Of a stretch of DNA of 39,124 bases, positions 10,058-28,709 are shown piece after piece. The DNA is taken from NCBI GenBank assembly GCA_013791935.1, contig VMSV01000044.1, positions 1 to 39,124 of the forward strand, read 5' to 3'. Source of the DNA: Desulfobacteraceae bacterium. Its GTDB lineage: Bacteria; Desulfobacterota; Desulfobacteria; Desulfobacterales; UBA5616. The position numbers and the translations under genes were made by a program. The notes below the pieces were generated by a model. That model was not told the DNA's origin, did not search any database, and worked only from the letters and a program-made list of their open reading frames with translations. The first letter of the stretch is position 1. Every line of letters starts with the position of its first letter.

Positions 10058-11060
10058 AAAGATTCCATGGGGAATCGCGGGGGCTGGAGCGCTTTTTCTT
10101 CTGCTGGAACTCGCGGCCCGCATGCTCTGGACTCCGGCTTTCGTGGGGGAAAAAACCTATAGCCGCTTTGAGCCCAACTACCGCTATGGGTATTCGGAGC
10201 AGATGCCTCTTTTTGAAAGCATCGGAAACCAGTTGGTTTGTATGCAGACCCAATACACCCAGTTTCACCGGCAAACCCTGTCCAAAACCAAAGCAAAAAA
10301 CGAGATCCGGATTTTCACCCTGGGCGGATCGGTTTCCAGGGGATCTTTGGAAACCAGCTATTCAGGCCGTCTTGAAAAAATGCTCAGGCTTGCTGCCCCC
10401 CAATACGAATGGCATATCATCAACCTCTCCTGCGGCGGCTACGGGACCTCCCGAATGAGGGTTCTGATGAAAAAAACCCTGGCGTATGAACCGGACCTCT
10501 TTATCCTTCACCCCCACGGATCCAATGAATATGAAGACGAGCGGGATTTCAACTACCAGGAGAAGCTCCATGCAGGGATGAACCGCCTGTTTTTCTCTTC
10601 CCACTTTCTGGTGCTTTCCAAAAAAAAATATGACGAGCTGAACTCCAACGCTCTGCCCCAGTCCGACGCGGAGAGTGAGCTCAAGGCCAGTGCGGTTCCC
10701 GAGAATGTGGCCCGGTGGAATGCCACCATGGACAAAAACCTTCAGGCCATGATGGACGTGGCAAAATCAAGGCACGCCGGGGTGGTTCTGGTGGGCAGGG
10801 CGGATAGGAATGACGGGGCCGAATACTACGCAAACAAGGAGACCCTGGAGATCAACCGGATCATCAAGGAGCATTCCAAGACCTTTTCCCCTTGTTTTTA
10901 TCTGGACATGGCGGGCCTCATGGCTTCAACCTATCCGGATATGGAAAGCAAGGAATTCCTCTTTGAGGACACCACCCACTGGAGGGAAATCGGGCATAAA
11001 ATGGCGGCGGAACACCTGCTTGGGCCTGTCCTTGCCATGGTGAAAGCCTCAAGACCTTAA
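10026..11060 (+). CDS. membrane-anchored SGNH-fold hydrolase/acyltransferase, partner of the MBOAT protein
   Basis: A 344-residue protein starting at a GTG inside the end of the MBOAT gene, suggesting translational coupling. A single N-terminal membrane segment (about 13-33) leaves the rest periplasmic. SGNH blocks are visible: LGGSVSRG with nucleophile Ser102, a block-II glycine in GGYGTSR, GSNE (165-168) and the catalytic dyad motif DTTH (Asp315, His318). In AlgI/AlgJ-type systems the SGNH protein finishes or assists acetyl transfer to the polymer. I infer the same role here; an esterase role is the alternative. Its stop codon overlaps the end of the convergent meaB gene by 12 bases. Confidence 0.8.
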   Translation: MGRISSIFNFKKIPWGIAGAGALFLLLELAARMLWTPAFVGEKTYSRFEPNYRYGYSEQMPLFESIGNQLVCMQTQYTQFHRQTLSKTKAKNEIRIFTLGGSVSRGSLETSYSGRLEKMLRLAAPQYEWHIINLSCGGYGTSRMRVLMKKTLAYEPDLFILHPHGSNEYEDERDFNYQEKLHAGMNRLFFSSHFLVLSKKKYDELNSNALPQSDAESELKASAVPENVARWNATMDKNLQAMMDVAKSRHAGVVLVGRADRNDGAEYYANKETLEINRIIKEHSKTFSPCFYLDMAGLMASTYPDMESKEFLFEDTTHWREIGHKMAAEHLLGPVLAMVKASRP

Positions 11061-12050
11061 AGAGGCTTGTATGTTGTCCAGGTATTTCCGGGTGATCTCC
11101 CGGCTTGCCCTGTGGGGGTCTGTCTCTTTTTTCATGATCCGAATGGCAATCCTTTCCATTTCCCCGCTTTCCGCCAAATCGTTGAGGACAGGGTCCAGGA
11201 GGATATGATGAAGGGCTTCCCGGAGTTCCATTTTGGCCTTGCGCTGCATCCGTTCATCCATAAGCTTTGTGTTCAGAAGCATTTGAAAATGCTGCTCTGC
11301 GGCCCCGGCCAGGTTTTCAACCCCCCGGGCAAAAGCTTCCTCATCCCCGGCGTTCCCGATTTTGATAATGGGAGGGCGCCAATGGCCAGGGAATTCTGAA
11401 ACCATGTTGAGCATGGACGTCAGTTCATTTTCCAGCCTTCCGGCCCCTTCGCGGTCCGCTTTGTTGATGACAAAGATATCGGCAATTTCCATGACTCCGG
11501 CCTTTATGGCCTGGATTTCATCCCCCATGCCGGGGGTGAGCACCAGGATGACCGTATGGGAATGGTTGATGATATCCACTTCCTGCTGGCCTGCACCCAC
11601 GGTTTCCACCAGAATGAGGTCTTTGCCCATGGCATCCATGACATGAACGGCATCCCCCACCGCAGCGGAAAGCCCGCCCAATGCACCTCGTGTGGCCAGA
11701 CTCCGGACAAACACATCCGGGTCCTCCCCGTGGCTTTTCATCCGGACCCGGTCCCCCAAAATCGCGCCTCCGGTAAACGGCGAGGTGGGGTCCACGGCCA
11801 GGACCCCCACCGTTTTGGACTGTTTTCGGGAAACGGAAATCATCCGATCCACAAGCGTGCTTTTGCCCGCACCCGGGGCCCCGGTGAGTCCGACAATGCG
11901 GGCTCTTCCCGTGTGGGGGAAAAGCGCCATGACCGAAGCTTTGGCGCCGGGCAGTTTGTCTTCCAGATTCCTGATCAGGCGGGAGGCGGCTCGAACCTCT
12001 CCGGCCAGGATTTTTAGTATAACATCCGTTGCATCCAATGGATTGACCAT
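11049..12050 (-). CDS. meaB: MeaB/ArgK-type GTPase, chaperone of B12-dependent mutase
   Basis: A 333-residue G3E-family P-loop GTPase. MeaB loads adenosylcobalamin onto acyl-CoA mutases and protects or repairs them. The sequence shows the Walker A motif GAPGAGKS (57-64), the diagnostic MeaB stretch VDPTSPFTGGAILGDRVRM, the switch region ETVGAGQQEVDI and the guanine-specificity motif NKAD. It is the last gene of the leftward mutase island, 18 bases after the B12-binding subunit, so it is dedicated to that mutase. Length and motif order are normal for the family. Confidence 0.93.
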   Translation of the reverse strand: MVNPLDATDVILKILAGEVRAASRLIRNLEDKLPGAKASVMALFPHTGRARIVGLTGAPGAGKSTLVDRMISVSRKQSKTVGVLAVDPTSPFTGGAILGDRVRMKSHGEDPDVFVRSLATRGALGGLSAAVGDAVHVMDAMGKDLILVETVGAGQQEVDIINHSHTVILVLTPGMGDEIQAIKAGVMEIADIFVINKADREGAGRLENELTSMLNMVSEFPGHWRPPIIKIGNAGDEEAFARGVENLAGAAEQHFQMLLNTKLMDERMQRKAKMELREALHHILLDPVLNDLAESGEMERIAIRIMKKETDPHRASREITRKYLDNIQASLRS

Positions 12051-12068
12051 GCTGTATGGTTTTTCATT

Positions 12069-12461
12069 TCAGTTCGGGAAAGCATCATTCAGGTAGGTGA
12101 CCACGTCCGAAACGCTGGTCCCGGGAAGAAAAATTTTTGCCACCCCCTGATTTTTCAAAGCAGTGATGTCATCCCGGTTGATGATGCCGCCCCCGAAGAC
12201 CATAATATCCTTGGCCCCCTTTTCGTCAAGCAGGCGGACCACCTTGGGGAAAATGGTCATGTGGGCTCCGGACAGACTGCTGATACCGATGGCGTCCACA
12301 TCCTCCTGAATGGCGATGGAAACCACCGACTCCGCGGTCTGGCGAATCCCGGTATAAATCACTTCCATGCCCGCATCCCGGAGACCGACAGCAATGACTT
12401 TGGCCCCCCGGTCGTGCCCGTCCAACCCAACTTTGGCAATGAGTATGCGTTTTTTTCTCAT
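12069..12461 (-). CDS. B12-binding subunit of an acyl-CoA mutase
   Basis: A 130-residue stand-alone cobalamin-binding domain, equivalent to the C-terminal domain of methylmalonyl-CoA mutase. The lower-ligand motif is [12 protein letters not shown] (Asp14-x-His16-x-x-Gly19). It is followed by the GISSLSGAH loop and FGGGII and PGTSV segments that hold the nucleotide tail of B12. The start follows AAAGGGGT. It must work with the large subunit encoded at 15605, from which it is separated by the acyl-CoA ligase and MmgE/PrpD genes. That split two-subunit form is typical of isobutyryl-CoA-type and archaeal mutases rather than of the fused bacterial methylmalonyl-CoA mutase. Confidence 0.92.
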
Positions 12462-12487
12462 GTCTCTTACCCCTTTATTTTCAACAG

Positions 12488-14092
12488 CTATCTAGTTATT
12501 TTTTCCCGGTCCCAGGTTGTTGCCGTCACTCCCCGCTTCACCAGTTTATACTTCTCCGTGCGGAAGGTGGGGGTTTTGGGCAGTTCTTCCAGAAACTCCA
12601 CATACCGGGGCACCATGAACCGGGCCATGTTTTTCTGGCAATATTCAATCAGTTGTTCCGGAGAAAGGGCCTGCCCGGGTTTCAGCACCACGGCGGCCAT
12701 GATGTCTTCCTCGGACAGTTCCGAAGGCACGCCGAAAACCGAGCTCTCCATCACCGCCGGATGCCGGTCGATGACCATCTCCACTTCCTGGGCCGATACG
12801 TTTTCCCCCCGCCTTCGAATCGCGTCCTTTTTCCGGCCCTTGAAGAAGAAGAACCCGTCCTCATCCACCATGGCCAGGTCCCCGGACCGGAACCACCCGT
12901 CCTTCATCTTCTCATCCGTGGCATCGGGTTCCTTGTAGTATTCCACCCAAATTTCCGTGGGGTCCGTGGGACGGATGATCATTTCTCCCACGTTTCCCGC
13001 CGGAAGATCGTTGTCGTCGTCATCCACCACTTTGGCTTCATTGTAGTAAGGCGGTCTTCCCATGGATCCGATCTTCCGGTCTCCGGGCCGGTTGTTGATG
13101 GACCCGCCTTCGGTGGTGCCGTAGGATTCCACGATTTCCAAGTTGAACCGCCTTTCAAAATCAGGAATGAGGTCCGCCGGCGCTCCGGCCCCACGGGCAA
13201 ACCGCACATGATGGTTTTTTCCGTCCTGGTTCGTGGGGGGCGCTTTGTAAAGAATGGCGATCATGGCCCCGATGTAGTTAAAGGTCGTTGCCTTGTGCTT
13301 CCGGATATCCTCCCAGAACTGGCTGGCGGAAAACCGCACGCCCAGGGCCATTTTTCCGTTGATGAACAGGGCGGGCAACGTGGTGAGGTTCTGGGCATTG
13401 CCGTGGTACATGGGCAGGGCCGTGTAAAAAATATCCTCGGGCGTGTACCCGAACACCCTCAAGGCTCTCAGGGCTCTAAGCATCACATATTCATGGGACC
13501 GCAGCACGCCTTTGGATCGGCCCGTGGTCCCCGAGGTGTACATGATCTGAAACGGATCCTCCGGGGCAATGGCCGGGGAGGTGAAGGTGTCCGGACCCAT
13601 GAAAAAATCCTTTAAATCCCTGGTTCCGTCAGGCACCGGGGCGTTGCCGTCGGACTTGACCACATAAAAATCCAGATCCCGGCCGGCCAGGGCCTCTTTC
13701 AGCTGGGGCATAAGATCCTGCTGGACAATGGCCCCCCGGGTGTCCGAATGGGTGAGGATATAGGAGAGAATTTCCCCCTTCCATTCGATGTTAAAGGGCA
13801 CCATCACGGCCCCGATCTTGGAGATGGCAAACCACACAAACAAGTATTCCGGGCAGTTGGCCAGCAGGACCCCGATCTTATCTCCCTTTTTAATGCCCAG
13901 GGCCGTCAGGGCATGGGCCGCCTGGTTGGCCTTTGATTCGAATTCATCAAAGGTAATGGCCTGGTCCTTGAACAGGAGAAAGGTTTTGCCCTTGTTCCGT
14001 TTCGCCTTTTCTGCCAACAGATTCCCCAGGGTCCATTGGTCACGGGGCAGGCTGATGAGGTCCGCTCCCCAATCTTTTTCATTTTCCAGCAT
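12488..14092 (-). CDS. AMP-forming acyl-CoA ligase, CaiC-like
   Basis: A 534-residue member of the adenylate-forming (ANL) superfamily. It activates a carboxylic acid with ATP and joins it to CoA. I place the start at the ATG at 14092, after a GGAGG site eight bases upstream. The P-loop [12 protein letters not shown] begins near residue 184. A5-type YGTTEGG, A7 [21 protein letters not shown] and A8 [13 protein letters not shown] follow. The usual final-loop PRTxTGK is replaced by [11 protein letters not shown], which still offers a lysine. The overall pattern resembles crotonobetaine/carnitine-CoA ligases, but the substrate is unknown. Its place between the mutase subunits suggests it makes the CoA ester that enters the mutase pathway. 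Confidence 0.88.
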
Positions 14093-14133
14093 TCGCAATT
14101 CCTCCGCACATATATTTTGGTTGGGCCATTGCC

Positions 14134-14200
14134 GGGCAGACACATAGGTCTGCCCCTACGCCTACACCCAAATCCTATGGGCGGACCTATGTGTCCGCCC
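14134..14200. repeat. inverted REP doublet between the MmgE/PrpD and ligase genes
   Basis: Two copies of the window's REP element point in opposite directions: 14134-14160 in reverse orientation (GGGCAGAC stem, GTCTGCCC, then CCTACG) and 14179-14200 forward with a degenerate GTAG foot. Each folds into an 8-bp stem with a 5-6 base loop. They fill the 130-base gap inside the operon and may act as an mRNA-stabilising or attenuating structure between the prpD-like gene and the ligase gene. Confidence 0.8.
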
Positions 14201-14222
14201 TTGATGTTCGGTTCCGATATAT

Positions 14223-15578
14223 TTACCTGTTAGATGTTTCCTTCACAATCGTATTAAAAAAAGGAACCAAGTTCTTCTGATATTCCAGGTTCTGTAAGAA
14301 ATCATATATAAAACCAATCTTGTCCGAGGGCAAAATGCCGGACAAGGATTTTTTAAACTTCTTTCCCACAACTTCTGTGGAAAGCGGATTTTCCGGCTCT
14401 CCCAAGGGGAACCGCAACTGCCGGTGTATGGTACGACCGTCCTTTAATTTTATGTTTACGATTGCACCCCTTTCAGCCGGGAAGTTAACGTCCAAGGCCG
14501 GGTCCACCACAACCCTGGTTTTTGTGCACAGCGCCTTTATGGTTTTATCGGCCAGGAGGGCTTCGGTGATCTGCTCATCCGATACTTCCCCTTCCTTTAA
14601 GGCCACTGCCACGAGAAACGGGGTGTTGAACCGGGCATCCGTATGATTTCCGGCATTTTCCCGTTCCATGGCATGGGCCGCCGAGGTGATGCCGACGAAA
14701 ATTTCCGCGACGTTTTCCGGTTTGACGGCGTCCGTTGCCCGCATGTCCAGGACCGCATCAATGGCCGGATGGATGTGGCGGCACCCCCCGTGGAGTTTCA
14801 AATAACTCTCCCCCACGAGGAATCGTGACCCCAAATCGTTAAGGTCGAGGGTTTGGGCGTTCCCGTATGCTTTTAAAAACCCCTCTTCCAGGGCCCGGGC
14901 CGGACCGGGCATTCCCTTTTTGGCCAGCAGGGCCGCTTCAAACCCGCCTTTCACGGCCCTGGCGATCTGGTAGCATTTGGCAGGATAGGCATCAAAGGCA
15001 CACACCAGACCACCCGATGACAAACAGGCCAGGGACAGGGCCGAAGAGAGTTCATGGGCATCCAGGCCCATGAGTTTGCCAACCGCCGTGGCCGCCCCCG
15101 GGGGCGCTAAAATGGCCGATGAATGAAATCCCCGCTGCAATACATAGGGATAGATGGCGTAACCGATACGCAGGTGAACCTCATAGGCCAGGATGATGGC
15201 GGCAATCAATGCCTCACCGGATGCCCCGGTGATCTGGGCCGCAGCCAGAGCCGGCGGAATAATTCCCGACGAGGGATGGGCCCCGGCATACCGGCTGCCG
15301 TCTTCCATGCCCGAGGATGTGGCAATATAGCTGTTGCAGGCTGCGGCATCGGCCGCCGGCAGAAGTTTCCCGGAAAACAGGACCATGGCTTCGGGCGAAG
15401 AGGGAATGCAGGGGGCGTTGAGAACAAAATTTTCCACCCCGGACCCCATGCCCATGGCCAGGGCCGCCAGAAAGTCCATAATCCGGATTTTGGCTTTTTC
15501 CTTCACATCGGATGGAATCTTTTCAGCCGTTGTTTCATTAACAAACAAAGCCAGGTGTTCAATCAAGGTCCGGGTCAC
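14223..15578 (-). CDS. MmgE/PrpD-family protein
   Basis: A 451-residue member of the MmgE/PrpD family, which includes 2-methylcitrate dehydratase, cis-aconitate decarboxylase and iminodisuccinate epimerase. A GTG at 15578, preceded six bases earlier by GGGAGG, is a better start than the TTG at 15608. Family features are the helical N-terminal repeat domain (AKIRIMDFLAALAMG, NSYIATSSGMEDGSRYAGAHPSSGIIPPALA), the GFHSSAILAPPGAA segment and LKLHGGCRHIHPAID. The gene starts 26 bases after the mutase large-subunit stop, so the two are co-translated. This suggests dehydration, decarboxylation or isomerisation of a branched di- or tricarboxylic acid made or used by the mutase; the exact reaction cannot be read from sequence. 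Confidence 0.85.
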   Translation of the reverse strand: MTRTLIEHLALFVNETTAEKIPSDVKEKAKIRIMDFLAALAMGMGSGVENFVLNAPCIPSSPEAMVLFSGKLLPAADAAACNSYIATSSGMEDGSRYAGAHPSSGIIPPALAAAQITGASGEALIAAIILAYEVHLRIGYAIYPYVLQRGFHSSAILAPPGAATAVGKLMGLDAHELSSALSLACLSSGGLVCAFDAYPAKCYQIARAVKGGFEAALLAKKGMPGPARALEEGFLKAYGNAQTLDLNDLGSRFLVGESYLKLHGGCRHIHPAIDAVLDMRATDAVKPENVAEIFVGITSAAHAMERENAGNHTDARFNTPFLVAVALKEGEVSDEQITEALLADKTIKALCTKTRVVVDPALDVNFPAERGAIVNIKLKDGRTIHRQLRFPLGEPENPLSTEVVGKKFKKSLSGILPSDKIGFIYDFLQNLEYQKNLVPFFNTIVKETSNR

Positions 15579-15604
15579 GGAAAGCCTCCCTTCCTTTTGT
15601 ATAA

Positions 15605-17248
15605 TCAAAGAAATGCCAGGGGTTCCTTGAATTCACCATAGAGATCCCGCAGTACATCGCAGATTTCACCGATGGTGGCATAGGCTTTAACGGCTTCAAT
15701 CATGGACGGCACAAGATTCTCGTTTTTCTGCCCGGCCCCGCGAATGGCCGCAAGGCCCCGTTGCACCGCCTGGTTGTCCCGTTCCTTTTTCAATTGGGCC
15801 AGATTGGCCAACTGCTCCTTTTCCACAGCCGGGTTGACCAGAAAACTGGGCATTTCGATTTCCTCCCCGGTTTCAAACCGGTTCACTCCCACCACCACCT
15901 GCTTGCCCGAGTCGATCTCCTTTTGAGCTTCCCAGGCCGACTGCATAAGTTCCTGCTGGTAAAAGCCTTCCTGGATGCACTGCACCGCTCCGCCCTTTTT
16001 CTCAATTTGGGCCAAGACTTCCCACACATCCTTTTCAATGGTATTGGTGAGCTGTTCAATGAAATAAGACCCGCCCAGAGGATCCGCGATGTTGGAAACT
16101 CCGGTCTCATGGGCGATGATCTGTTGGGTACGCAGGGCAATGGTTACGGCATCTTCCGCCGGCAGCGACAACGCTTCATCATGGGAGGAGGTGGCCAGGT
16201 ATTGCACCCCGCCCAGAACCGCGGCCATGGCCTGGAGGGCCACTCGGGTGACGTTGTTCAAGGGCTGCTGGGCCGTCAGGGTCACACCGGCCGTGTAGGC
16301 GCTGATGTGCATTTTCTGGGATTCCACATGGTCCGATCCGTAGCGGGTCTTAACCAGTTTGGCCCAGATCCTCCGGGCTGCCCGGAACTTGGCGATCTCC
16401 TCGAAAAAATCTTTATGGATCAGGAAGTGAAAGGTCAGGGTTGGGGCAAATTCCTCCATTTTCAGGCCTCTGGAAATGGCCTCGTCCGAATAGGCAATGG
16501 CATTGGCCAGGGCAAACCCAAGCTCATGCTTCACCTTGCCCCCGGCCTGGCGCATGTGGCTGCCGCAGGCGGTTAAGGGAAGCCAATTGGACGCATGATG
16601 GGCGCAATGCTCCAGGGCATCGATGCACAGCTTCACCGAGGGTCCGGGTGGAAAGATATGGGTGCCCCGGGCCACGAATTCCTTTAATACGTCATTTTGC
16701 AGCCTCACCTTGAAACTTGACGGCGGATACCCGCGCTTTTCCCCGAGCGCCAGAAGCCAGGCCAGGGCAATGGGACCAATGGCATTGGCCGTGGTGCGGA
16801 TAATGCCCACCTTGTCCAGGGGAATGCCGTCCAGCATGATCTCCACATCCCGCAGGGAATCAATGGCCACGCCGGTGCGCCCCACTTCGCCTTCGGCCTG
16901 GGGATGGTCCGAATCCATGCCCAGCTGGGTGGGAAGATCCAGGGCGATTCCCACCCCGGAACCCCCCTTGGCAATGAGGTATTTAAACCGCTCGTTGGAT
17001 TCCCTGGCTGTGCCGAATCCCGAATACTGGCTCATCACCCAGTGCTTTTCCCGGTACATCTCCGGGTCAATGCCACGGGTGTAGGGATACTGGCCGGGAA
17101 GCCCCAGTTCTTGAGCCGGATTAAAATCCTTTAGATCCTCGGCCGTATAAACATTGGGCAAAATATATCCGGAGAGGGTCCGATTGTTTTTTTTGTCTTC
17201 ATGGAGTGTTCCGGATGCTGATTCCTTTTGGGTGGGGTTGGTGGACAT
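15605..17248 (-). CDS. divergent B12-dependent acyl-CoA mutase, large subunit
   Basis: A 547-residue TIM-barrel subunit of the methylmalonyl-CoA mutase family; the ATG at 17248 follows AAGGAGAC. Landmarks are PGQYPYTRG, SQYSGFGTARESN, ALDLPTQLGMDSDHP, LQNDVLKEF, GSHMRQAG and NIADPLGGSYFIE. Compared with my recollection of the P. shermanii enzyme, the catalytic positions Tyr89, Arg207 and His244 are kept (Tyr75, Arg194, His231 here). Most cofactor-A contacts differ: Tyr75 to Asp61, Thr77 to Glu63, Arg82 to Lys68, Arg87 to Ser73, Ser114 to Gly100, Ser164 to Ile150, Thr195 to Arg182, Tyr243 to Ser230, Arg283 to Thr270. It should therefore rearrange a carbon skeleton, but on an unusual substrate or thioester. 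The B12 subunit is at 12069. Confidence 0.85.
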   Translation of the reverse strand: MSTNPTQKESASGTLHEDKKNNRTLSGYILPNVYTAEDLKDFNPAQELGLPGQYPYTRGIDPEMYREKHWVMSQYSGFGTARESNERFKYLIAKGGSGVGIALDLPTQLGMDSDHPQAEGEVGRTGVAIDSLRDVEIMLDGIPLDKVGIIRTTANAIGPIALAWLLALGEKRGYPPSSFKVRLQNDVLKEFVARGTHIFPPGPSVKLCIDALEHCAHHASNWLPLTACGSHMRQAGGKVKHELGFALANAIAYSDEAISRGLKMEEFAPTLTFHFLIHKDFFEEIAKFRAARRIWAKLVKTRYGSDHVESQKMHISAYTAGVTLTAQQPLNNVTRVALQAMAAVLGGVQYLATSSHDEALSLPAEDAVTIALRTQQIIAHETGVSNIADPLGGSYFIEQLTNTIEKDVWEVLAQIEKKGGAVQCIQEGFYQQELMQSAWEAQKEIDSGKQVVVGVNRFETGEEIEMPSFLVNPAVEKEQLANLAQLKKERDNQAVQRGLAAIRGAGQKNENLVPSMIEAVKAYATIGEICDVLRDLYGEFKEPLAFL

Positions 17249-17308
17249 ATCCTTGGTCTCCTTGTGGCTGTGGGAAAATTCATAGAGGTGCACCACCGTG
17301 GCATCGGA

Positions 17309-17338
17309 CCTTGCCATCTGCCGTCCGGCATGGCAAGG
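17309..17338. other. 9-bp stem-loop upstream of the mutase gene
   Basis: CCTTGCCAT (17309-17317) and ATGGCAAGG (17330-17338) pair perfectly around a 12-base loop that can itself form GCC/GGC. It lies 61 bases before the mutase start, in the 163-base gap after the M29-like gene. No T-run follows on either strand. It may be an operator or an mRNA leader structure. Confidence 0.4.
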
Positions 17339-20045: not shown

Positions 20046-20234
20046 GGAATGATTTCTCCTTAAAAGTCCTGATAATGATGGTCCAACCATACCGGCTTTC
20101 CCTAGGGTTGGTCAAGATTGAAAAGGAGATAGAAGGCGGCCAAGCACGATTTTTCCAGGCTCAAAATAACTCCCGGGACAAATCCTTGCCTTGGTTTAAA
20201 AAAAAGGCTAATCTCTCTTGAACAGGAGGTGACG

Positions 20235-20906
20235 GTGGAAAATTTAATCCATGAAAAATATTGGCTGAATCGTTTGAACAGGCTCAAAAAAGCCTTGGAG
20301 AAAAATAATTTCGAGGTGTTTCTGGCAAGCACCCCATCAGAAGCAAAGGACGTGGTCTTAAAGGAAATCATCCCCCGGACCCAAGCGAAAACCATTTCCA
20401 TGGGGGATTCCTTGACGGCCATCAGCACGGGAATATTCGCTGAGATTAAAAATCAGCCGAATCTGAATTTTTTAGATACGTTTGAGCCGGGAATCCCCTT
20501 TGAGGTAGCCTTTGAACGGCGAAGACAAGCCCTGCTGGTGGATTTGTTCATTACAGGAACCAACGCCGTGACCCAGAAAGGGCAACTGGTCAATCTGGAT
20601 ATGATCGGCAACCGTGTGGGAGGCATCACCTTCGGCCCCAAAAACGTCATCATTCTCGTGGGTCGGAATAAGTTGGTTCCAGACCTGGAAACCGCCATGG
20701 ACCGGGTGCGAACCTATGCTGCGCCGGTCAATGCCATCCGGCACCAGGCTGAGCACCCCGAGCTTGATCCCCCCTGCACCCAAACCGGGATCTGCGCCAA
20801 TTGCACCCATCCCTTAAGAATCTGCAACACCTGGACAATCACGGAAAAATCCTTTCCTCCAGGGCGGATCAAAATCGTTCTCATCAATGAGGATATGGGT
20901 CTATGA
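20235..20906 (+). CDS. LUD-domain (LutC/DUF162-type) protein
   Basis: A 223-residue protein of the LUD family, found in L-lactate oxidation (LutC) and in many anaerobe redox clusters. The GTG at 20235 is preferred since AGGAGG ends five bases before it. Landmarks are FEVFLASTPSEAKDVVL, GDSLTAISTGIF, LFITGTNAVTQKGQLVNLD and the C-terminal Cys motif TGICANCTHPLRICNTW, which may bind a metal or Fe-S centre. It is a lone plus-strand gene that ends 18 bases from the convergent mvhD stop. The partner Fe-S proteins LutA/LutB are absent from the window, so its substrate is unknown. Confidence 0.8.
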   Translation: MENLIHEKYWLNRLNRLKKALEKNNFEVFLASTPSEAKDVVLKEIIPRTQAKTISMGDSLTAISTGIFAEIKNQPNLNFLDTFEPGIPFEVAFERRRQALLVDLFITGTNAVTQKGQLVNLDMIGNRVGGITFGPKNVIILVGRNKLVPDLETAMDRVRTYAAPVNAIRHQAEHPELDPPCTQTGICANCTHPLRICNTWTITEKSFPPGRIKIVLINEDMGL

Positions 20907-20924: not shown

Positions 20925-21401
20925 TTAAGCCAAACTGCTTCGACCTGCCTCCAACGTTGTTTTTTCAAAAGCTTTGTTTTCTCTCATCAGCCGGATGTGG
21001 CTGGGACCCAACCCCCTGACCCGCTCGGTTATTTCCGTGGCCAGCTCGGCGAACCGGCCCCCCATGGCGGATGAAAGATTGACCATGCCGATGCGCTCCG
21101 GGTCAACCCCCACGGCAGCAAGGATTTCCCGGGCATAGGCGATACGTTTTTTGGCTTTTAGATTTCCTTCCAGGAAATGGCATTCCCCTTCCAGTCACCC
21201 GGCCACAAAAACGCCGTCCACCCCGCTTTCCAAGGCTTTGAGCATGTGAAGCACATCCACCCGGCCGGTGCAAGGCAATTGAACGATCTTGATGTTTCCG
21301 GGATAGGAAAGCCGCATGGACCCGGCCAGATCCGCAGCCGCGTAGGCGCAGTAGCGGCAGCAGAAGGCGATGATCTGGGGCTCGAAATCATTATTTGGCA
21401 T
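20925..21401 (-). CDS. mvhD: MvhD-like hydrogenase/heterodisulfide reductase delta subunit, selenoprotein
   Basis: A 158-residue protein read through one TGA (21195-21197) as selenocysteine at residue 69. Upstream are IIAFCCRYCAYAAADLAG and QLPCTGRVDVLHMLKALE. The codon falls in VFVAG-U-LEGECHFLEGN, where MvhD proteins have Cys, followed by KKRIAYAREIL and NLSSAMGGRFAELATEITERV. Translation is fully conserved on both sides of the TGA, so it is not a random stop. A SECIS-like hairpin sits at 21162-21178. The ATG at 21401 is chosen because AAGGAGGAAACC precedes it. MvhD carries a [2Fe-2S] cluster and passes electrons to HdrA. The gene starts 16 bases after the hdrA stop. Confidence 0.92.
21162..21178 (-). 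promoter_or_regulatory. SECIS-like hairpin in mvhD
   Basis: On the minus strand ATTTCC-TGGAA-GGAAAT forms a perfect 6-bp stem with a 5-base loop. The loop begins 22 bases after the in-frame TGA, inside the coding sequence, which is the expected place for a bacterial SelB-binding element. The loop sequence and distance are identical to those in the hdrCB gene at 26403. Confidence 0.8.
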
Positions 21402-21417
21402 GGTTTCCTCCTTCATG

Positions 21418-24400
21418 TTAAGCCTCCATCAGGGAACAAACCTTTGAAATCAGCTGATCGTCTGTAAAATTCTGGAGGGTAATCACTTTGGCCGGGCATT
21501 CGGCAGCGCAGATACCGCAACCCTGGCACTTGACGCTTTCGATTACCACAATGCCTTCTTTTCCGATCCTGGGGGCTCCAAAAGGACAACTTCTCAGGCA
21601 CACCAGGCATCCGGCGCAACTGGCGGAATGCTGCATGACGGCCACCACCCCGCCCACCATGATGGTATCCCGGGCCAGCAGGGTCATGGCCCTGGATGCG
21701 GCGGCCTTGGCCTGGGCGATGGTTTCCTCCACGGGTTTGGGGTAATGGGCCAGACCGGCCATGAAAATTCCTTCGGAAGCAAAATCCACGGGCCGGAGTT
21801 TGGCATGGGCCTCCACCAGAAAACCCTCCGGGTTTACCGGCACCTTGAACATTTCAAAAAGTCCGGCATTTTCATTGGGGAGAACTGCGCTGGCCAGTAC
21901 GACCACATCAGGATGCAGGCTCACCGGAACCCCCATGACATGGTCCAGAACCGTGAGCTGAAGACGGCCGTCAGGGTCCAGATCCACTTCCGGCAGAAGA
22001 TCCATGTCGTAGCGGATGAACAGGACGCCTCTCTGCCGGGCTTCCTGGTAAAGATCTTCACGGAAACCGTAGGAGCGGATATCCCGGTAGATGATGAAGA
22101 CTTTCATGGACGGATTCTCCACCTTCATCCGGATGGCGCTTTTCAAGCTGTGAGTGCAGCAGATCCGGCTGCAGTATGGCCTCTCAGGGGTTCGGGACCC
22201 CACGCACTGGATGAAGGCCACTGCTTTCATTTTCTTTAAATCCACTTTTCCACGCAGGAGCGCCGTATCAAGATCCAGGTGGGTCATGACCCCGGCATGC
22301 TTGCCGTACAGGTATTCTTCCGGCTGGTATTCTCTTCCGCCGGTGGTAAGGATGGTGGCCCCGTGTTCGATGGTGAAGGGCTGTGCGACGTCTTTTTGCT
22401 GGATGGTGGTTGAAAAATTACCCGGAATACCGGCCGTTCGCTGGATCTTGGCTGAAAGAATCACCTCAATGTTGGGATGGTTCATGAGGATGGTGATGAT
22501 ATCCGCAAGATAGGCCTGGATATCCTCCCCCTGCCAGGTGTTGCGAAGCAGGCGTGCGTTGCCCCCCAGTTCATCGTTTTGCTCCACCAGATGCACCTTG
22601 CATCCCTGTTCGGCCAGGCTGAGTGCTGCTTCCATACCGGCCACCCCGCCCCCCACCACCAGGGCCGCCCGGATCACGCCGATGGGCACTCGAAACAGGG
22701 GCTCATTCCAGGCCACTTTGGCTACTGCCATGCGCACAAGATCCCTGGCCTTGGCTGTTGCAAGATCCGGGTTGTTCATATGCACCCAGGTATTCTGATC
22801 CCGAATATTGGCCATTTCAAAGAGATAGGGGTTCAGACCCGCTTCCCGAATGGTATCCTGAAAGATCGACTCGTGGGTCCGGGGGGAACAGGAAGCCACC
22901 ACCACCCGGTTAATCTGTTTTTCTTCAATAACGGCTTTGATGTGGTCCTGGGAATCCTGGGAACAGGTGAACAGGTTGTCTTCCACATGCACCACATGGG
23001 GGAGGCTTCGGGCATAATCCCTCACCGCTGGCACATCGGCAATGCCTCCGATATTGATCCCGCAGTTGCACACAAAAACCCCGATGCGGGGCTCTTCTCC
23101 TTGAATATTCCTTTCCGGAGGCAAGCTCCGGGTAAGGACCTCCGTTCCTCGAACGTCTGATAAGATTTCTGCCGCTGCGGAAGCTGCCGCTGAAGCTTCC
23201 ATGACCGATTGGGGAATATCCTTGGGCCCCTGAAAAGCACCGCAAACGAATATGCCTTCCCGGCTGGAGGAAACCGGCGTCAGGTTCCGGGTGGCGGCAA
23301 AACCGTGTTGGTTGAGATCGATTCCCAGCTTTTGAGCGGTTTCCTTCATGTCCTCTGCCGGAGACATGCCCACGGACAGGACCACCAGATCGAAAACCTC
23401 GTCCTTAATTTTGCCGTCCTCGGTTCCGAATCGAATGTGAAGCTGATCATTGGGCAGGGGGTCCACGGAATGGATGCGTGACCGGATGAAATTGACCTGC
23501 TTTTCCTCCCTGGCCCGATCGTAGTATTTTTCAAAATCCTTGCCGTAGGTGCGCATATCCATAAAGAAAATGGTGGTATCCAGTTCCCCGTGGCTGTGTT
23601 CCTTGGCAATGACCGCCTGCTTGATGGCATACATACAGCAGACTCCGGAACAATAGGAATGATCGCAGGCATTGATATCCCTGGACCCCACGCATTGGAC
23701 CCATGCGATTCTTTTCGGCTCCCGCTGATCCGACGGCCTCACCATGTGCCCCTTGAACGGGCCGGAGGCCGAAAGGATGCGCTCAAACTCCAGGCTGGTC
23801 ACCACATTGGGATGCCCGGCATAACTGTAGGTCGGGTATGCGCCGGGGTCAAAAGGCACGAATCCCGGTGCCAGGATCACCGCTCCCACCCGGATGGATT
23901 TTTGCTTCGTTAAAGTTTCATGTTCAACAGCGCCCGGAAGGCATGCTTTCACGCATTGGTAGCACTCGGAACAGATCCCGCATTGCAGGCACCGCTCGGC
24001 CTCCAGGCGAACCCTTATTTCATCCAAACCCAGTTGGACTTCATTGAAGTTCTTCATGCGCCGCCGGGCCGCCAGGTGGGGCATTTTCTGCCGGGGAATG
24101 GACTTGCCCCGGGTTTCAGGATCAAGAACCACGTTTGTAAACTCTCGGGATCGGCCCTGCTGGAGATCTTCTCCTTGGATAAAACGATGGATGGATATGG
24201 CCGCTTGTTTGCCGGCCTCAATGGCTTCCACCACCGTGGCCGGGCCCGTGATGGCATCACCCCCTGCGAAGATATCCGGATCTTCGCTCTGGAGGGTGGC
24301 GCTATCGACTTTCATGGTTCCCCAGTCACTCAAGGTGCAGGCGCATTCGTCGGTCAGGCAGGCCCAATCACTTTCCTGGCCGATGGCCGGAATCACCGCA

Positions 24401-25851
24401 TCCACTTCAATGATGAACTCCGAGCCCGGCAGGGGTTCAGGACGCCTTCTGCCACTTTCATCCGGCTCCCCCAGAACCATTTTGATGCATTCAATGGCCC
24501 TGACCTTTCCGTTTTCCGCCAGAATCCTCACCGGATGGGTGAGGGTCATAATCCGGATCTGTTCATCCAGGCATTCGGCGATTTCTTCTTTTGCAGCCGG
24601 CATCTCCTCCATACTTCTGCGGTATATGATAAAAGGTTCGGCAGATCCCAGGCGCAGGGCCGTTCGCACGGAATCCATGGCCACATTGCCGCCACCGATC
24701 ACTGCCACCCGGTCCCCCAGTTTCACCTTGTGCCCGGTATTGACCTTGAGAAGAAAATCAACCCCCGGATAAACCCCTTCCAGGTCCTCGCCTTCAATCC
24801 CCAGGGACTTGCAAGCCTGTGCGCCGATGCCAATGAAAAAGGCGGCAAAATCCTGTTTTCTCAATTGGCCGACGGTGAAATCCTTACCGATCTCAACCCC
24901 CGTTCGAAAGGTCACGCCCATGTTCCGGATGATCTGAATCTCCGCCTCCACCACATGACGGGGCAGCCGGTAAGCCGGAATCCCCAGGGTGAGCATGCCG
25001 CCCAGAATGGCCTGTTTTTCAAAGACCGTGACCTGGTAACCTTCCTTGGCCAGAAAATAGGCACAGGTGAGGCCGGCGGGACCCGAGCCCACAATGGCGA
25101 CTTTTTCATCCCGTAGAGACTTTTGTTCCGGCATAAAAGGTTTTCCGGAAGAGAAATCGTGGTCCGCCAGAAACCGGTGCAGGTATTGAATGCTCAAGGG
25201 CTGATCCACATCCTTCCGGTTGCAGGCCCCTTCGCAGGGATGATGGCAAACCCGCCCGCAGACTCCCGGAAAGGGATGTTCCTGCTTGAAAAGCTCAAGG
25301 GCTTCCCGGTATCTGCCCTTGTTCGCCAGGGCGATGAAACCCTGAACGCTCACATGGGCCGGACAGGTGGCCTTGCAGGGTGCGGTGCCTTTTTTCTCTA
25401 TGGCATAGCCGCTGGGCATGCCCTGGGGATAGAGTTTGTAGGCGGCCTGACGCTGGGCCAGTCCCGCATCAAAGGTGTTTTTGATATCCATGGGACAAAC
25501 CTTCTGACATTCCCCGCAAGCCGTGCATTTTTCAAGATTCACATGCCGGGGAAACTCCTTCAGCGCTACTTCGAAATTCCCTGAAGCACCTGAAATCTTA
25601 TCAATTTCAGTCAGGGTCATGAGTTCGATATTGAGATGCCTGCCGCATTCCACCAGTTTCGGGGAAATGATGCACATGGAACAATCGTTGGTGGGAAAGG
25701 TCTTGTCCAGCTGGGCCATGGTTCCGCCAATGGCGGACTGCCGTTCCACCAGATAAACATAAAACCCTGAATTGGCCAGATCGAGAGCTGCCTGAATTCC
25801 CGCTATGCCCCCGCCTGCAACCAGGACCGATCCTTTTTGTTCTTCTGACAT
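21418..25851 (-). CDS. hdrA: giant HdrA-NfnB-HdrA fusion protein
   Basis: A 1477-residue cytoplasmic iron-sulfur flavoprotein. The first HdrA FAD motif is at 13-18, followed by the HdrA cysteine segment NDCSMCIISPKLVECGRH and a ferredoxin motif (CTACGECQKVCP). An inserted NfnB/GltD module (about 155-570) has CKATCPAHVS, VCGRVCHHPCEGACNR, an FAD site (VGSGPAGLTCAYF), an NAD(P) site (VIGGGNVAMDSVRTA) and FAGGDAITGPATV. The HdrA part resumes with CLQCGICSECYQC and WVQCVGSRDINACDHSYC. A second HdrA unit follows from about 940 (VFVCNCGINIGGI, VVGGGVAGMEAALSLAEQ). Two [4Fe-4S] motifs end the protein (1412-1453). HdrA is the bifurcating flavin subunit. Here it carries its own NAD(P)H module, so it could link NAD(P)H, ferredoxin, HdrCB and MvhD. 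Confidence 0.92.
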   Translation of the reverse strand: MSEEQKGSVLVAGGGIAGIQAALDLANSGFYVYLVERQSAIGGTMAQLDKTFPTNDCSMCIISPKLVECGRHLNIELMTLTEIDKISGASGNFEVALKEFPRHVNLEKCTACGECQKVCPMDIKNTFDAGLAQRQAAYKLYPQGMPSGYAIEKKGTAPCKATCPAHVSVQGFIALANKGRYREALELFKQEHPFPGVCGRVCHHPCEGACNRKDVDQPLSIQYLHRFLADHDFSSGKPFMPEQKSLRDEKVAIVGSGPAGLTCAYFLAKEGYQVTVFEKQAILGGMLTLGIPAYRLPRHVVEAEIQIIRNMGVTFRTGVEIGKDFTVGQLRKQDFAAFFIGIGAQACKSLGIEGEDLEGVYPGVDFLLKVNTGHKVKLGDRVAVIGGGNVAMDSVRTALRLGSAEPFIIYRRSMEEMPAAKEEIAECLDEQIRIMTLTHPVRILAENGKVRAIECIKMVLGEPDESGRRRPEPLPGSEFIIEVDAVIPAIGQESDWACLTDECACTLSDWGTMKVDSATLQSEDPDIFAGGDAITGPATVVEAIEAGKQAAISIHRFIQGEDLQQGRSREFTNVVLDPETRGKSIPRQKMPHLAARRRMKNFNEVQLGLDEIRVRLEAERCLQCGICSECYQCVKACLPGAVEHETLTKQKSIRVGAVILAPGFVPFDPGAYPTYSYAGHPNVVTSLEFERILSASGPFKGHMVRPSDQREPKRIAWVQCVGSRDINACDHSYCSGVCCMYAIKQAVIAKEHSHGELDTTIFFMDMRTYGKDFEKYYDRAREEKQVNFIRSRIHSVDPLPNDQLHIRFGTEDGKIKDEVFDLVVLSVGMSPAEDMKETAQKLGIDLNQHGFAATRNLTPVSSSREGIFVCGAFQGPKDIPQSVMEASAAASAAAEILSDVRGTEVLTRSLPPERNIQGEEPRIGVFVCNCGINIGGIADVPAVRDYARSLPHVVHVEDNLFTCSQDSQDHIKAVIEEKQINRVVVASCSPRTHESIFQDTIREAGLNPYLFEMANIRDQNTWVHMNNPDLATAKARDLVRMAVAKVAWNEPLFRVPIGVIRAALVVGGGVAGMEAALSLAEQGCKVHLVEQNDELGGNARLLRNTWQGEDIQAYLADIITILMNHPNIEVILSAKIQRTAGIPGNFSTTIQQKDVAQPFTIEHGATILTTGGREYQPEEYLYGKHAGVMTHLDLDTALLRGKVDLKKMKAVAFIQCVGSRTPERPYCSRICCTHSLKSAIRMKVENPSMKVFIIYRDIRSYGFREDLYQEARQRGVLFIRYDMDLLPEVDLDPDGRLQLTVLDHVMGVPVSLHPDVVVLASAVLPNENAGLFEMFKVPVNPEGFLVEAHAKLRPVDFASEGIFMAGLAHYPKPVEETIAQAKAAASRAMTLLARDTIMVGGVVAVMQHSASCAGCLVCLRSCPFGAPRIGKEGIVVIESVKCQGCGICAAECPAKVITLQNFTDDQLISKVCSLMEA

Positions 25852-25869: not shown

Positions 25870-27156
25870 TTATAGACCGTAATCCGCCAAATCCGGACCA
25901 AGGTAGGACCGTTCGTTTTTCCCGAGAATCCCCAGGGACAGGCAGATAATGGTCCAGATATGGGCCGTATGGTAACTCCCCCCGTAGTGTTCACAGATGT
26001 CTTCAATCTGGGCATGGCAGTTGTGGCAGGGCGCCAGAACGTAATGGGCGCCTGTGTCCATGATCTGGTCGAATTTCAATTTCCCATAACGCCGACGGTC
26101 CTTGGGGAACCCGGCTTGAAGGGCCCCACCCCCGCCGCCGCAACAGAAATTGTTGGACTTGTTGGGGATCATGTCCACAAAATTTTGCTCACCCACCAGG
26201 ACGCGAAGAAACTCCCGGATGTCCTCTGCCACCTTATCCCCCAGGGTTTTGCGAACAATATTGCAGGGGTCCTGCAGGGTGAATTTGATTTTCAGGTCCC
26301 GGTTCCAGTCTGAATTGATTTTCAGTTTGCCTTGCCGGAACCATTCCACGTAGAGTTCCAAAATGCTTTTGACTTCAAATTTGTGGGGAATTTTGTACTT
26401 TCGCAATCCTTCCAGGATTGCATAAAAGGAGTGCCCTCACTCTGTGTTGACCACCTGTTTACACCCCAGGGTGTTGTCGATGTGATCGGCGAAACGCTCG
26501 ATGATATGGCGCCAGCCGTCATCATCCCCGAGAAACATGCAGTAATTTTCCCCGGCCCACATGACCGAAGGGTAGGTCCAGTCCGCCTCCACCAGGTGGA
26601 GAATCTTCCACAGAGGCGCCATTTCATCCGGTTCCGTCACCGGTTCCCTGGAATTCTGGTTCACGGCCATGAACGCCCCAGGCCGATCCACGGTGACCTC
26701 CATATCGGCAAACAGGGGCTGGGTTTGGCGGATTTCTTCCACCACGTCCTCCACGGTCCAGATGAAATCCTCGGTGGGAACCCCCATGGCATTGCCGGAT
26801 TTCACATGCTGCTCGCAGGAACCCCGAATCCCCTTGGGCCGGGTTTCCATGGGCCAGCTTTTGCGGGTGTTGTAGATGAGTTTGGGAATGTTGATTTTCA
26901 TGGGGCAGACATACATGCACCGGCCACACATGGTGCAGACCCAGGCCCATTCCGTGGCCTTGACCTGGTCATCCAGACCCAGATTGACCATTCGAAGGAA
27001 TTTCCGGGGGTCCAGCCCCATGAGCTCCGAAGCCGGGCAACCGCCGGTGCAGGTGCCGCAGGTCAGACAGAGATCCAGGTTGGCGTCGGGCACCTGGTCC
27101 AGAACCTGTTGTTTGAAATCGGCACTGAGATCGGTCAAATCGATATTGTTGGACAT
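25870..27156 (-). CDS. HdrCB/HdrD-like iron-sulfur protein, selenoprotein
   Basis: A 428-residue protein read through one TGA (26437-26439) as selenocysteine 240. The N-terminal HdrC part has two [4Fe-4S] motifs (Cys30-Cys40 and Cys74-Cys84). The C-terminal HdrB part has a complete CCG motif (Cys298, Cys338-Cys339, Cys377-x-x-Cys380) of the type that holds a non-cubane cluster. The Sec lies in QVVNTE-U-GHSF, where relatives have ECGH, as the first ligand of the N-terminal CCG repeat. Coding similarity continues on both sides of the TGA and a perfect hairpin follows it. The ATG at 27156 follows AAAGGAGC. The gene lies between metF and hdrA; it probably passes electrons between MetF and HdrA. 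Confidence 0.9.
26403..26421 (-). promoter_or_regulatory. SECIS-like hairpin in the hdrCB gene
   Basis: On the minus strand GCAATCC-TGGAA-GGATTGC is a perfect 7-bp stem with a 5-base loop. The loop starts 22 bases after the in-frame TGA. The loop bases and distance match the mvhD element exactly, while the stems differ in sequence, which is what a structural signal would show. Confidence 0.85.
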
Positions 27157-27182
27157 ACACCTTGCTCCTTTCCGGTTCCCCG

Positions 27183-28058
27183 TCAAACCAGTTTGGCGGC
27201 ATCCAGATAATGCCTGAGCTTGTCCTCTCCGCCGATACTGATGATGTGAACCCCCTGGCTGATATCTTTCAACCCCGACACAATATCCGAAAACAGCTCA
27301 ATGCTTGCCTTTTGCTTGTCCGGTGCCTGGGCCAGTTTTTTGATGATCCAGTCCGGAACCAGACCGGATTTTAAATGACGGTTCAGAAACTGGGCCATGC
27401 CCGCGGTTCTCAGGATTAAAACTTCCGCAATAACCGGAACGCCGAAGGTTTGGGCTTTCTGCATGAATTTTGCGAATTTCTCTACATCAAACACCGGCGT
27501 GGTGAGGAAGTAACCAGCTCCGATGCGGGTCATCTCCTCCATTTCCTTCAGTTCCAGGTCGGGAACATTTTTCCCCCAGCCGGATTCGATGCCAGAACCC
27601 AGGGTAAAATCCGCCTTAAAGGGCAGTTCCTCGCCCTCCACGGTGGAGCCGGTTTTAAGATGTCCGAGAACGGATTCCAGCTTGCCCGAATCCACATGAA
27701 AAAACATCATCTCCTGAAGGCTGTCCCCGGTGATCCGGTAGTCCTCGGTGAAAACCAGGAGATTTTCAACACCGGCGTCGTGGGCTTTGAGGAGATCCCG
27801 CTGGAGATCCAGGCGGTTTTTTTCCCGTGTGGTGGTCTGGAAAATGGGTTCGAAGCGGTTTTCCTTGAGGGTGACGCAGGTTTGAAGGGAATTGCCCACC
27901 ACCCCTTCCATCTCCGCCTCCGAGATGGAAAAGCCGTCCACCCGGCCCCGGATCATTTTAAGGCTTTCCACGAGGGAATGGGATTCACCTTCCATGGGTG
28001 CCTGAATCTCCGTGGTCACCACGAACCGTTTTTTTTCAAAAGCCTCCGCCAGTTTCAT
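27183..28058 (-). CDS. metF: methylenetetrahydrofolate reductase (MetF family)
   Basis: A 291-residue TIM-barrel flavoprotein that interconverts methylene-THF and methyl-THF in the Wood-Ljungdahl methyl branch. A strong AAGGAGG site precedes the ATG at 28058. Family features are VVTTEIQAPMEGESHSLVESL at the start, ISEAEMEG, a central QTTTREKNRLDLQRDLL, LLVFTEDYRITGD, and MTRIGAGYFLTTPVFD with VPVIAEV in the barrel. It is first in the operon with hdrCB, hdrA and mvhD. The MetV zinc-finger partner of acetogens is not in the window. In a sulfate reducer the enzyme probably runs in the oxidative direction during acetate or acetyl-CoA oxidation, with the Hdr proteins taking the electrons. Confidence 0.85.
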   Translation of the reverse strand: MKLAEAFEKKRFVVTTEIQAPMEGESHSLVESLKMIRGRVDGFSISEAEMEGVVGNSLQTCVTLKENRFEPIFQTTTREKNRLDLQRDLLKAHDAGVENLLVFTEDYRITGDSLQEMMFFHVDSGKLESVLGHLKTGSTVEGEELPFKADFTLGSGIESGWGKNVPDLELKEMEEMTRIGAGYFLTTPVFDVEKFAKFMQKAQTFGVPVIAEVLILRTAGMAQFLNRHLKSGLVPDWIIKKLAQAPDKQKASIELFSDIVSGLKDISQGVHIISIGGEDKLRHYLDAAKLV

Positions 28059-28136: not shown

Positions 28137-28709
28137 TCAGACAGGATTCAGCAACCGGGCAACTTCTTCTTTCAACTGGGGCAGGGGCAGTGGTTTCGAA
28201 AAACAAAGATCAGCGCCATTTCGTTTCATCTCTTCAAATTTTTCTTCATCCAGATAAGCCGAGAGGACAATAATTTGGGTGTTTTTGGTTTCCTCTTCGG
28301 ATTTGATTTTCCGGCAGACCTCTGTTCCCTTGATATCCGGCATCATGATGTCCAGAATGATCAAATGGGGTTTGAAATGGGAGACCTGAAGCCCGGCTTC
28401 AAAACCATCCGAAGCGGAAATCACTTCGTAATCGTGCTCATCCTCCTCCAGGGCCTGAACGATGGTTTCCACAATAATGGGATCATCGTCCACCACCAGA
28501 ATCCGCTTGCGCACGTCCGGAACGAACTGGGTGGGAATGGGAATCCCCTTTTCTTTCATAAAGGATTCAAGATCCGCCATATTAATCCGGCGGTGGCCGC
28601 CTACGGTCTTGTAGGCCTTGATATATCCGGCCTCCACCCAATTGATGATGGTTTTCGGGGAAACGTTACAATACTCACTCGCCTTGTAAACGGTTAAAAT
28701 TTGCTCCAT
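28137..28709 (-). CDS. MerR-type HTH plus response-regulator receiver protein
   Basis: A 190-residue regulator with unusual order: an excisionase/MerR-like winged helix (1-54, YKASEYCNVSPKTIINWVEAG, GGHRRI) followed by a receiver domain (about 68-190). The receiver has the acidic pair at Asp74-Asp76, phospho-acceptor Asp120 in LIILDIMMPDIKG, and a conserved lysine in CFSKPLP. GGAGG lies upstream of the ATG. No histidine kinase is adjacent, so it is an orphan. It lies next to metF on the same strand (78 bases before it), and its leader carries a repeated CTATAAT motif, so it may control itself and the metF-hdr operon. Confidence 0.85.
   Translation of the reverse strand: MEQILTVYKASEYCNVSPKTIINWVEAGYIKAYKTVGGHRRINMADLESFMKEKGIPIPTQFVPDVRKRILVVDDDPIIVETIVQALEEDEHDYEVISASDGFEAGLQVSHFKPHLIILDIMMPDIKGTEVCRKIKSEEETKNTQIIVLSAYLDEEKFEEMKRNGADLCFSKPLPLPQLKEEVARLLNPV

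Follow-up and report, generated by a model that had tools for sequence, protein, structure and literature searches.

Probable selenocysteine in MvhD, encoded in a Desulfobacterales hdrA operon, and its two alternative positions among homologues

The mvhD gene of a sulphate-reducer-like Desulfobacteraceae bacterium, coding for a small [2Fe-2S] electron-transfer subunit of the FlpD/FrhD/VhuD type, very probably decodes an in-frame UGA as selenocysteine (Sec) at residue 69, which would make its product a bacterial selenoprotein MvhD of the VhuD/FrhD family. The gene was located at 20925–21401 on the minus strand of the window, i.e., the whole analysed stretch of 39,124 nucleotides. Its frame runs from 21401 to 20925, comprises 158 codons with a single TGA (21197–21195) and a terminal TAA, and is preceded by a Shine-Dalgarno sequence, AAGGAGG, at 21407–21413 ahead of the ATG at 21401. 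The original prediction of one frame split by this TGA was corroborated by an FlpD domain spanning the TGA; its frame was real, but the strand, left unstated, is minus, and a plus-strand reading of the same positions was rejected as not coding. As had also been anticipated, an ORF finder breaks the gene: no single ORF was listed and neither half appeared among ORFs of at least 80 aa. A LUD-domain gene (20229–20906, plus strand) is convergent with mvhD and ends 18 bases from its stop codon.

The entire FlpD model (PF02662 in Pfam, positions 1–123 of 123) was matched over residues 10–132 with E=1.4e-46 and 157.9 bits against a cut-off of 22.3, and the similarity therefore does not break off at the TGA. 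MvhD/VhuD chains of known structure likewise align through it (best E=6e-38) and cover the FlpD domain at about 45% identity. The VhuD model NF045873, an exception model of NCBIfam, gave 142.5 bits, below the required 215, and by its sequence the protein is a relative within the VhuD family, not VhuD proper. For comparison 206 homologues were counted, 205 of them distinct, the remaining one being another copy of the window mvhD. The claim that the TGA replaces a conserved Cys of MvhD held: residue 69 is Cys in 171 of the 205, and apart from Sec only Cys was found there. It belongs to a set of C15, C18, C44, U69 and C74, which is the complete set of conserved Cys if Sec is counted as Cys, and residues 15, 44 and 74 are Cys in 186/186 homologues. 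Coding conservation extends to both sides of the UGA, and the residues C74, H75, G79, N80 and S110 on its 3' side are invariant.

The strongest evidence for Sec is a putative bacterial SECIS hairpin, AUUUCCU-GGA-AGGAAAU (21162–21178, minus strand), because its codons, synonymous sites included, are kept in genes with UGA at residue 69 and vary in those with Cys. According to the bSECISearch rule, a SECIS reportedly has a stem and an apical loop, the first two bases of which include a G, 16–37 nt from the UGA; the mvhD hairpin, with its loop GGA at UGA+23, conforms to this rule. The codons CAT TTC CTG GAA GGA AAT are identical in 33 distinct UGA69 genes, with one single-base exception, at GAA, in spite of only 54–68% identity of their proteins to the window MvhD, while there is free variation in the codon for Gly, third after the UGA, and in that for Leu behind the hairpin. 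Where Cys69 homologues have identical residues, they use these codons, in this order, in 70/119, 33/74, 9/32, 22/34, 34/119 and 68/119 cases. This conservation at codon level behind the UGA makes chance a very unlikely origin of the latter. The free energy of the hairpin was unexceptional against shuffled sequences (z +0.7) and as such uninformative, and therefore Sec and Cys homologues were compared at codon level. The best rule-obeying hairpin had a median of −4.3 kcal/mol in Sec69 and of 0 in Cys69 genes (Mann-Whitney p=1.5e-21, nominal, as the sequences are related); at residue 18 this comparison separated Sec from Cys genes less cleanly (p 0.0014, and not by total minimum free energy). 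Rfam yielded no SECIS match, either in the whole window at gathering threshold or around both UGAs at permissive E-values. A genome-wide search for the pattern UGA-N16-22-CCUGGNAGG gave 46 matches, mostly without evident Sec gene context, and revealed one more Sec69 MvhD, on contig C9.

A second gene of the same operon, beyond the scope of the original prediction as were the strand, the SECIS and the alternative Sec positions treated below, appears to contain Sec as well. It is located at 25870–27156 (minus strand) and codes for an HdrCB/GlpC-like Fe-S protein of the HmcF/TmcB/DsrK type, which were its best-scoring matches, with a CCG domain and one UGA (26437–26439) in the motif 'NTEUGHS', where Cys-type relatives have Cys. 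The ORF finder cuts this gene, too, into two (26437–27186 and 25870–26406). Its predicted SECIS, UGCAAUCCU-GGA-AGGAUUGCG (26402–26422, minus strand, loop 23 nt after the UGA), shares the GGA loop and the UGA+23 spacing with that of mvhD; it was kept in 22 Sec-type genes and missing from 18 Cys-type homologues, and covarying pairs were seen in locus L054 (GUCCU-GGC-AGGAC). The distant homologue in L112 shows another well-formed stem, GCGCUUCA-GUU-UGAAGCGC. In the more distant loci L092, L105 and L112 a GlpC-like gene at another place near hdrA-mvhD was likewise observed with UGA in 'EUGHA', and hairpins of these genes differ yet pair well (ACCA-GGCU-UGGU; GCGCUUCA-GUU-UGAAGCGC).

The window's genome (G000), a draft assembly of 4.7 Mb in 270 contigs, 98% complete and with 5.8% estimated contamination, possesses the Sec machinery for which a search had been proposed: selA (612.7 bits), selB (389.6 bits), selD (363.5 bits) and tRNA-Sec (selC, 74.7 bits) all exceeded their curated cut-offs. 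They sit on contigs other than that of the window, which, like the estimated contamination, is a point against the case for Sec. The selD gene (L010, contig C2) is itself UGA-coded, with an in-frame UGA in the motif GSGUGSKL. Since selA was matched in 96/96 good-quality genomes, and exceeded the cut-off in 138 of the 146 searched, its co-distribution with Sec forms is uninformative. Elsewhere in the window TGA is a normal stop, ending 3/18 ORFs of at least 280 aa; five single-TGA readthrough candidates besides mvhD were obtained by a length filter alone. In relatives that keep the TGA, the downstream coding sequence, which the original prediction had named as a check, is kept as well, and so is the SECIS. 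SelB and Sec-tRNA-Sec would thus bind the hairpin, which starts 16 nt behind the UGA, and we infer from these sequence features that Sec is inserted at residue 69.

Three other explanations of the TGA were weighed, each of them very improbable. A sequencing or assembly error for TGC or TGT in an ordinary Cys-type MvhD would take a single base change in one contig of a 270-contig draft, and the nearest relatives in the tree are Cys forms; nevertheless, the UGA69-type SECIS is complete here down to synonymous sites that are not conserved in Cys relatives, and another UGA, with the same element behind it, interrupts the neighbouring operon gene, which leaves such an error with a very small residual probability. 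Slightly less probable still is that the gene decayed recently into a pseudogene through a premature stop, or yields a truncated product of 68 aa, for which the in-frame stop codon as such and the weak free-energy signal of the hairpin could be adduced, but the invariant C74, H75, G79, N80 and S110 lie downstream of the UGA, and the UGA persists in 33 distinct genes, in which the sequence behind it is conserved as coding. Least credible is a reading as another amino acid such as Trp, by reassignment or plain readthrough, as nothing specific favours it, UGA terminates normal genes here, the site is otherwise occupied by Cys only and the genome has dedicated Sec machinery.

The two Sec genes belong to an operon of five on the minus strand, in the order response regulator (28137–28709, with an N-terminal MerR/excisionase-type HTH), metF-like methylene-THF reductase gene (27183–28058, directly upstream of the GlpC-like gene), glpC-like gene, hdrA (21418–25851) and mvhD, and about 20 Desulfobacterales loci have kept this order. 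The HdrA of 1477 aa includes an inserted GltD/NAD(P)-binding domain (approximately residues 151–653) and a further C-terminal flavin/ferredoxin part. At 11049–17317 (minus strand) adjacent genes for methylmalonyl-CoA mutase, MmgE/PrpD, acyl-CoA synthetase and MeaB were found, which suggests a cluster of propionate/methylmalonyl-CoA genes in the neighbourhood of the Hdr operon.

Residues 15, 18, 44, 69 and 74 are the five positions with conserved Cys or Sec, which presumably bind the [2Fe-2S] cluster or lie beside it, and ligation of the cluster by residue 69 is inferred. A [2Fe-2S] cluster, present in MvhD as in its homologue ElpC, supplies the bifurcating FAD of HdrA (PMC12350162, PMC6019823), and MetVF-HdrBCA-MvhD sets are known in Moorella and Sporomusa, where MetF of Sporomusa ovata interacts with both Hdr and MvhD proteins (PMC9430772). 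From these roles and the operon itself it was deduced, with a probability somewhat above even, that the operon encodes a methylene-THF reductase of Hdr type, in which MvhD would serve as electron connector. In this complex of the Wood-Ljungdahl pathway, MvhD would carry electrons between HdrA and a partner, and NAD(P)H-derived electrons would be bifurcated or confurcated with ferredoxin. Like the sets of Moorella thermoacetica and Sporomusa ovata (PMC9430772), the window, as well as its approximately 20 relatives, unites metF with hdr and mvhD genes in a single operon, and its HdrA is comparable to the 162.8-kDa HdrA of Moorella (PMC9430772). It differs from them in that one HdrCB/GlpC-like protein, with HdrC-like and CCG parts, takes the place of separate HdrB and HdrC, that no MetV gene was found alongside and that Sec would occur in two subunits.

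The reductase role is the weakest step of this reading, because the scan of the operon genes found no MetV and because MetF, a remote family member, scored under the NCBIfam cut-off. Both facts also speak for a competing view, which concerns the functional step and not Sec decoding, namely that MvhD, HdrA and GlpC serve another process, e.g., as thiol/disulfide or membrane-complex partner of the HmcF/TmcB/DsrK kind, MetF being merely co-regulated. The best matches of the GlpC-like protein to HmcF/TmcB/DsrK fit this view, as does the existence of other hdrA-mvhD copies without a glpC-like gene or a close metF; against it stand the position of metF immediately 5' of the GlpC-like gene, kept in those Desulfobacterales loci, and the MetF interactions in Sporomusa ovata (PMC9430772). 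It was considered the less probable of the two, though a serious competitor to the methylene-THF reductase.

Sec-containing MvhD is not novel, as the selenoprotein family has been known since 2005–2006 and Sec-containing FrhD/MvhD were described in deltaproteobacteria (Zhang & Gladyshev, 2006, PMC1794560; review PMC13188914). Published Sec FrhD/MvhD/VhuD share with the window the PF02662 domain, Sec in place of a conserved Cys, a deltaproteobacterial host and clustering with hdrA and a Sec glpC. For its FrhD/MvhD/VhuD example the review lists a CxxU motif and the number 2, taken here to mean two Sec (PMC13188914); the window MvhD, in contrast, has Sec at 69 only, and among the relatives fetched Sec occurs more often at position 18 (CxxU). 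Clusters of Sec glpC, hdrA and frhD were reported together with hydrogenase genes in Syntrophobacter and Desulfotalea (PMC1794560). The order glpC (Sec), hdrA, frhD (Sec) is identical in the window, whose operon, unlike those clusters, is without hydrogenase genes, has metF and the response regulator ahead of glpC, and encodes an HdrA without in-frame UGA and with a GltD-like insertion. Sec-containing VhuD-type homologues, to which the original prediction had pointed, are exemplified by the solved VhuD chain 9sfi_K of an Hdr complex, which is homologous to the window MvhD over 131 residues and has X, presumably Sec, at the equivalent of residue 69. Unlike the window MvhD it has a second X, at the counterpart of residue 18; the chain is taken to be archaeal, and hence a different SECIS system would apply.

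Concerning these two residues, the 205 distinct homologues (residue 18/residue 69) were distributed as C/C in 86, U/C in 85, C/U in 34 and U/U in none (Fisher p 1e-7 for exclusion, calculated for the first 186 homologues and ignoring ancestry). Genes with U18 have a hairpin of their own, GGACCU-GGC-AGGUUC, kept in nearly all of 67. Among cultured relatives, Desulfosarcina alkanivorans and D. cetonica possess mvhD genes of the U69 type. The window's genome has both kinds, with U69 in the window and on contig C9 (L212) and U18 on contig C183 (L066). L212, near position 12068, is an MvhD paralogue with UGA at residue 69, the canonical 'GUHPGDCHYLEG' and a CCUGGAAGG apex, and L066 (60406–60840) is a third paralogue with UGA at residue 18, not 69, beside its own hdrA. 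In the MvhD tree the window gene stands alone, nearest to Cys forms, in a placement which is not firm; AU tests did not reject its union with the syntenic U18 clade (p 0.36), and a single clade of all U69 genes in a reduced set was not rejected either (p 0.20). The HdrA tree puts the window together with loci encoding CC, CU and UC forms of MvhD (residues 18/69), and the Sec site therefore differs between close relatives of the operon, by a switch in place or, alternatively, by mvhD replacement, either of which may have occurred. It is proposed tentatively, and with rather more doubt than confidence, that bacterial MvhD has Sec at 18 or 69 but never at both, that the site has moved within a syntenic operon and that each site is accompanied by its own near-invariant SECIS. 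The mutual exclusion, which was not found stated in a limited literature search and is possibly novel, is regarded as a modest lead.

For the bacterium itself, the analysis corrects the annotation of two genes broken by standard ORF calling and places predicted Sec in two subunits of one energy-metabolism operon. If the alternation is true, one selenolate at either site would suffice to tune the same redox centre, and the Sec site could switch in evolution, unlike in the archaeal enzyme with Sec apparently at both. The alternation between residues 18 and 69 would then offer a natural set of variants, in which the role of selenium at an electron-transfer [2Fe-2S] centre may be compared with that at a catalytic thiol site.
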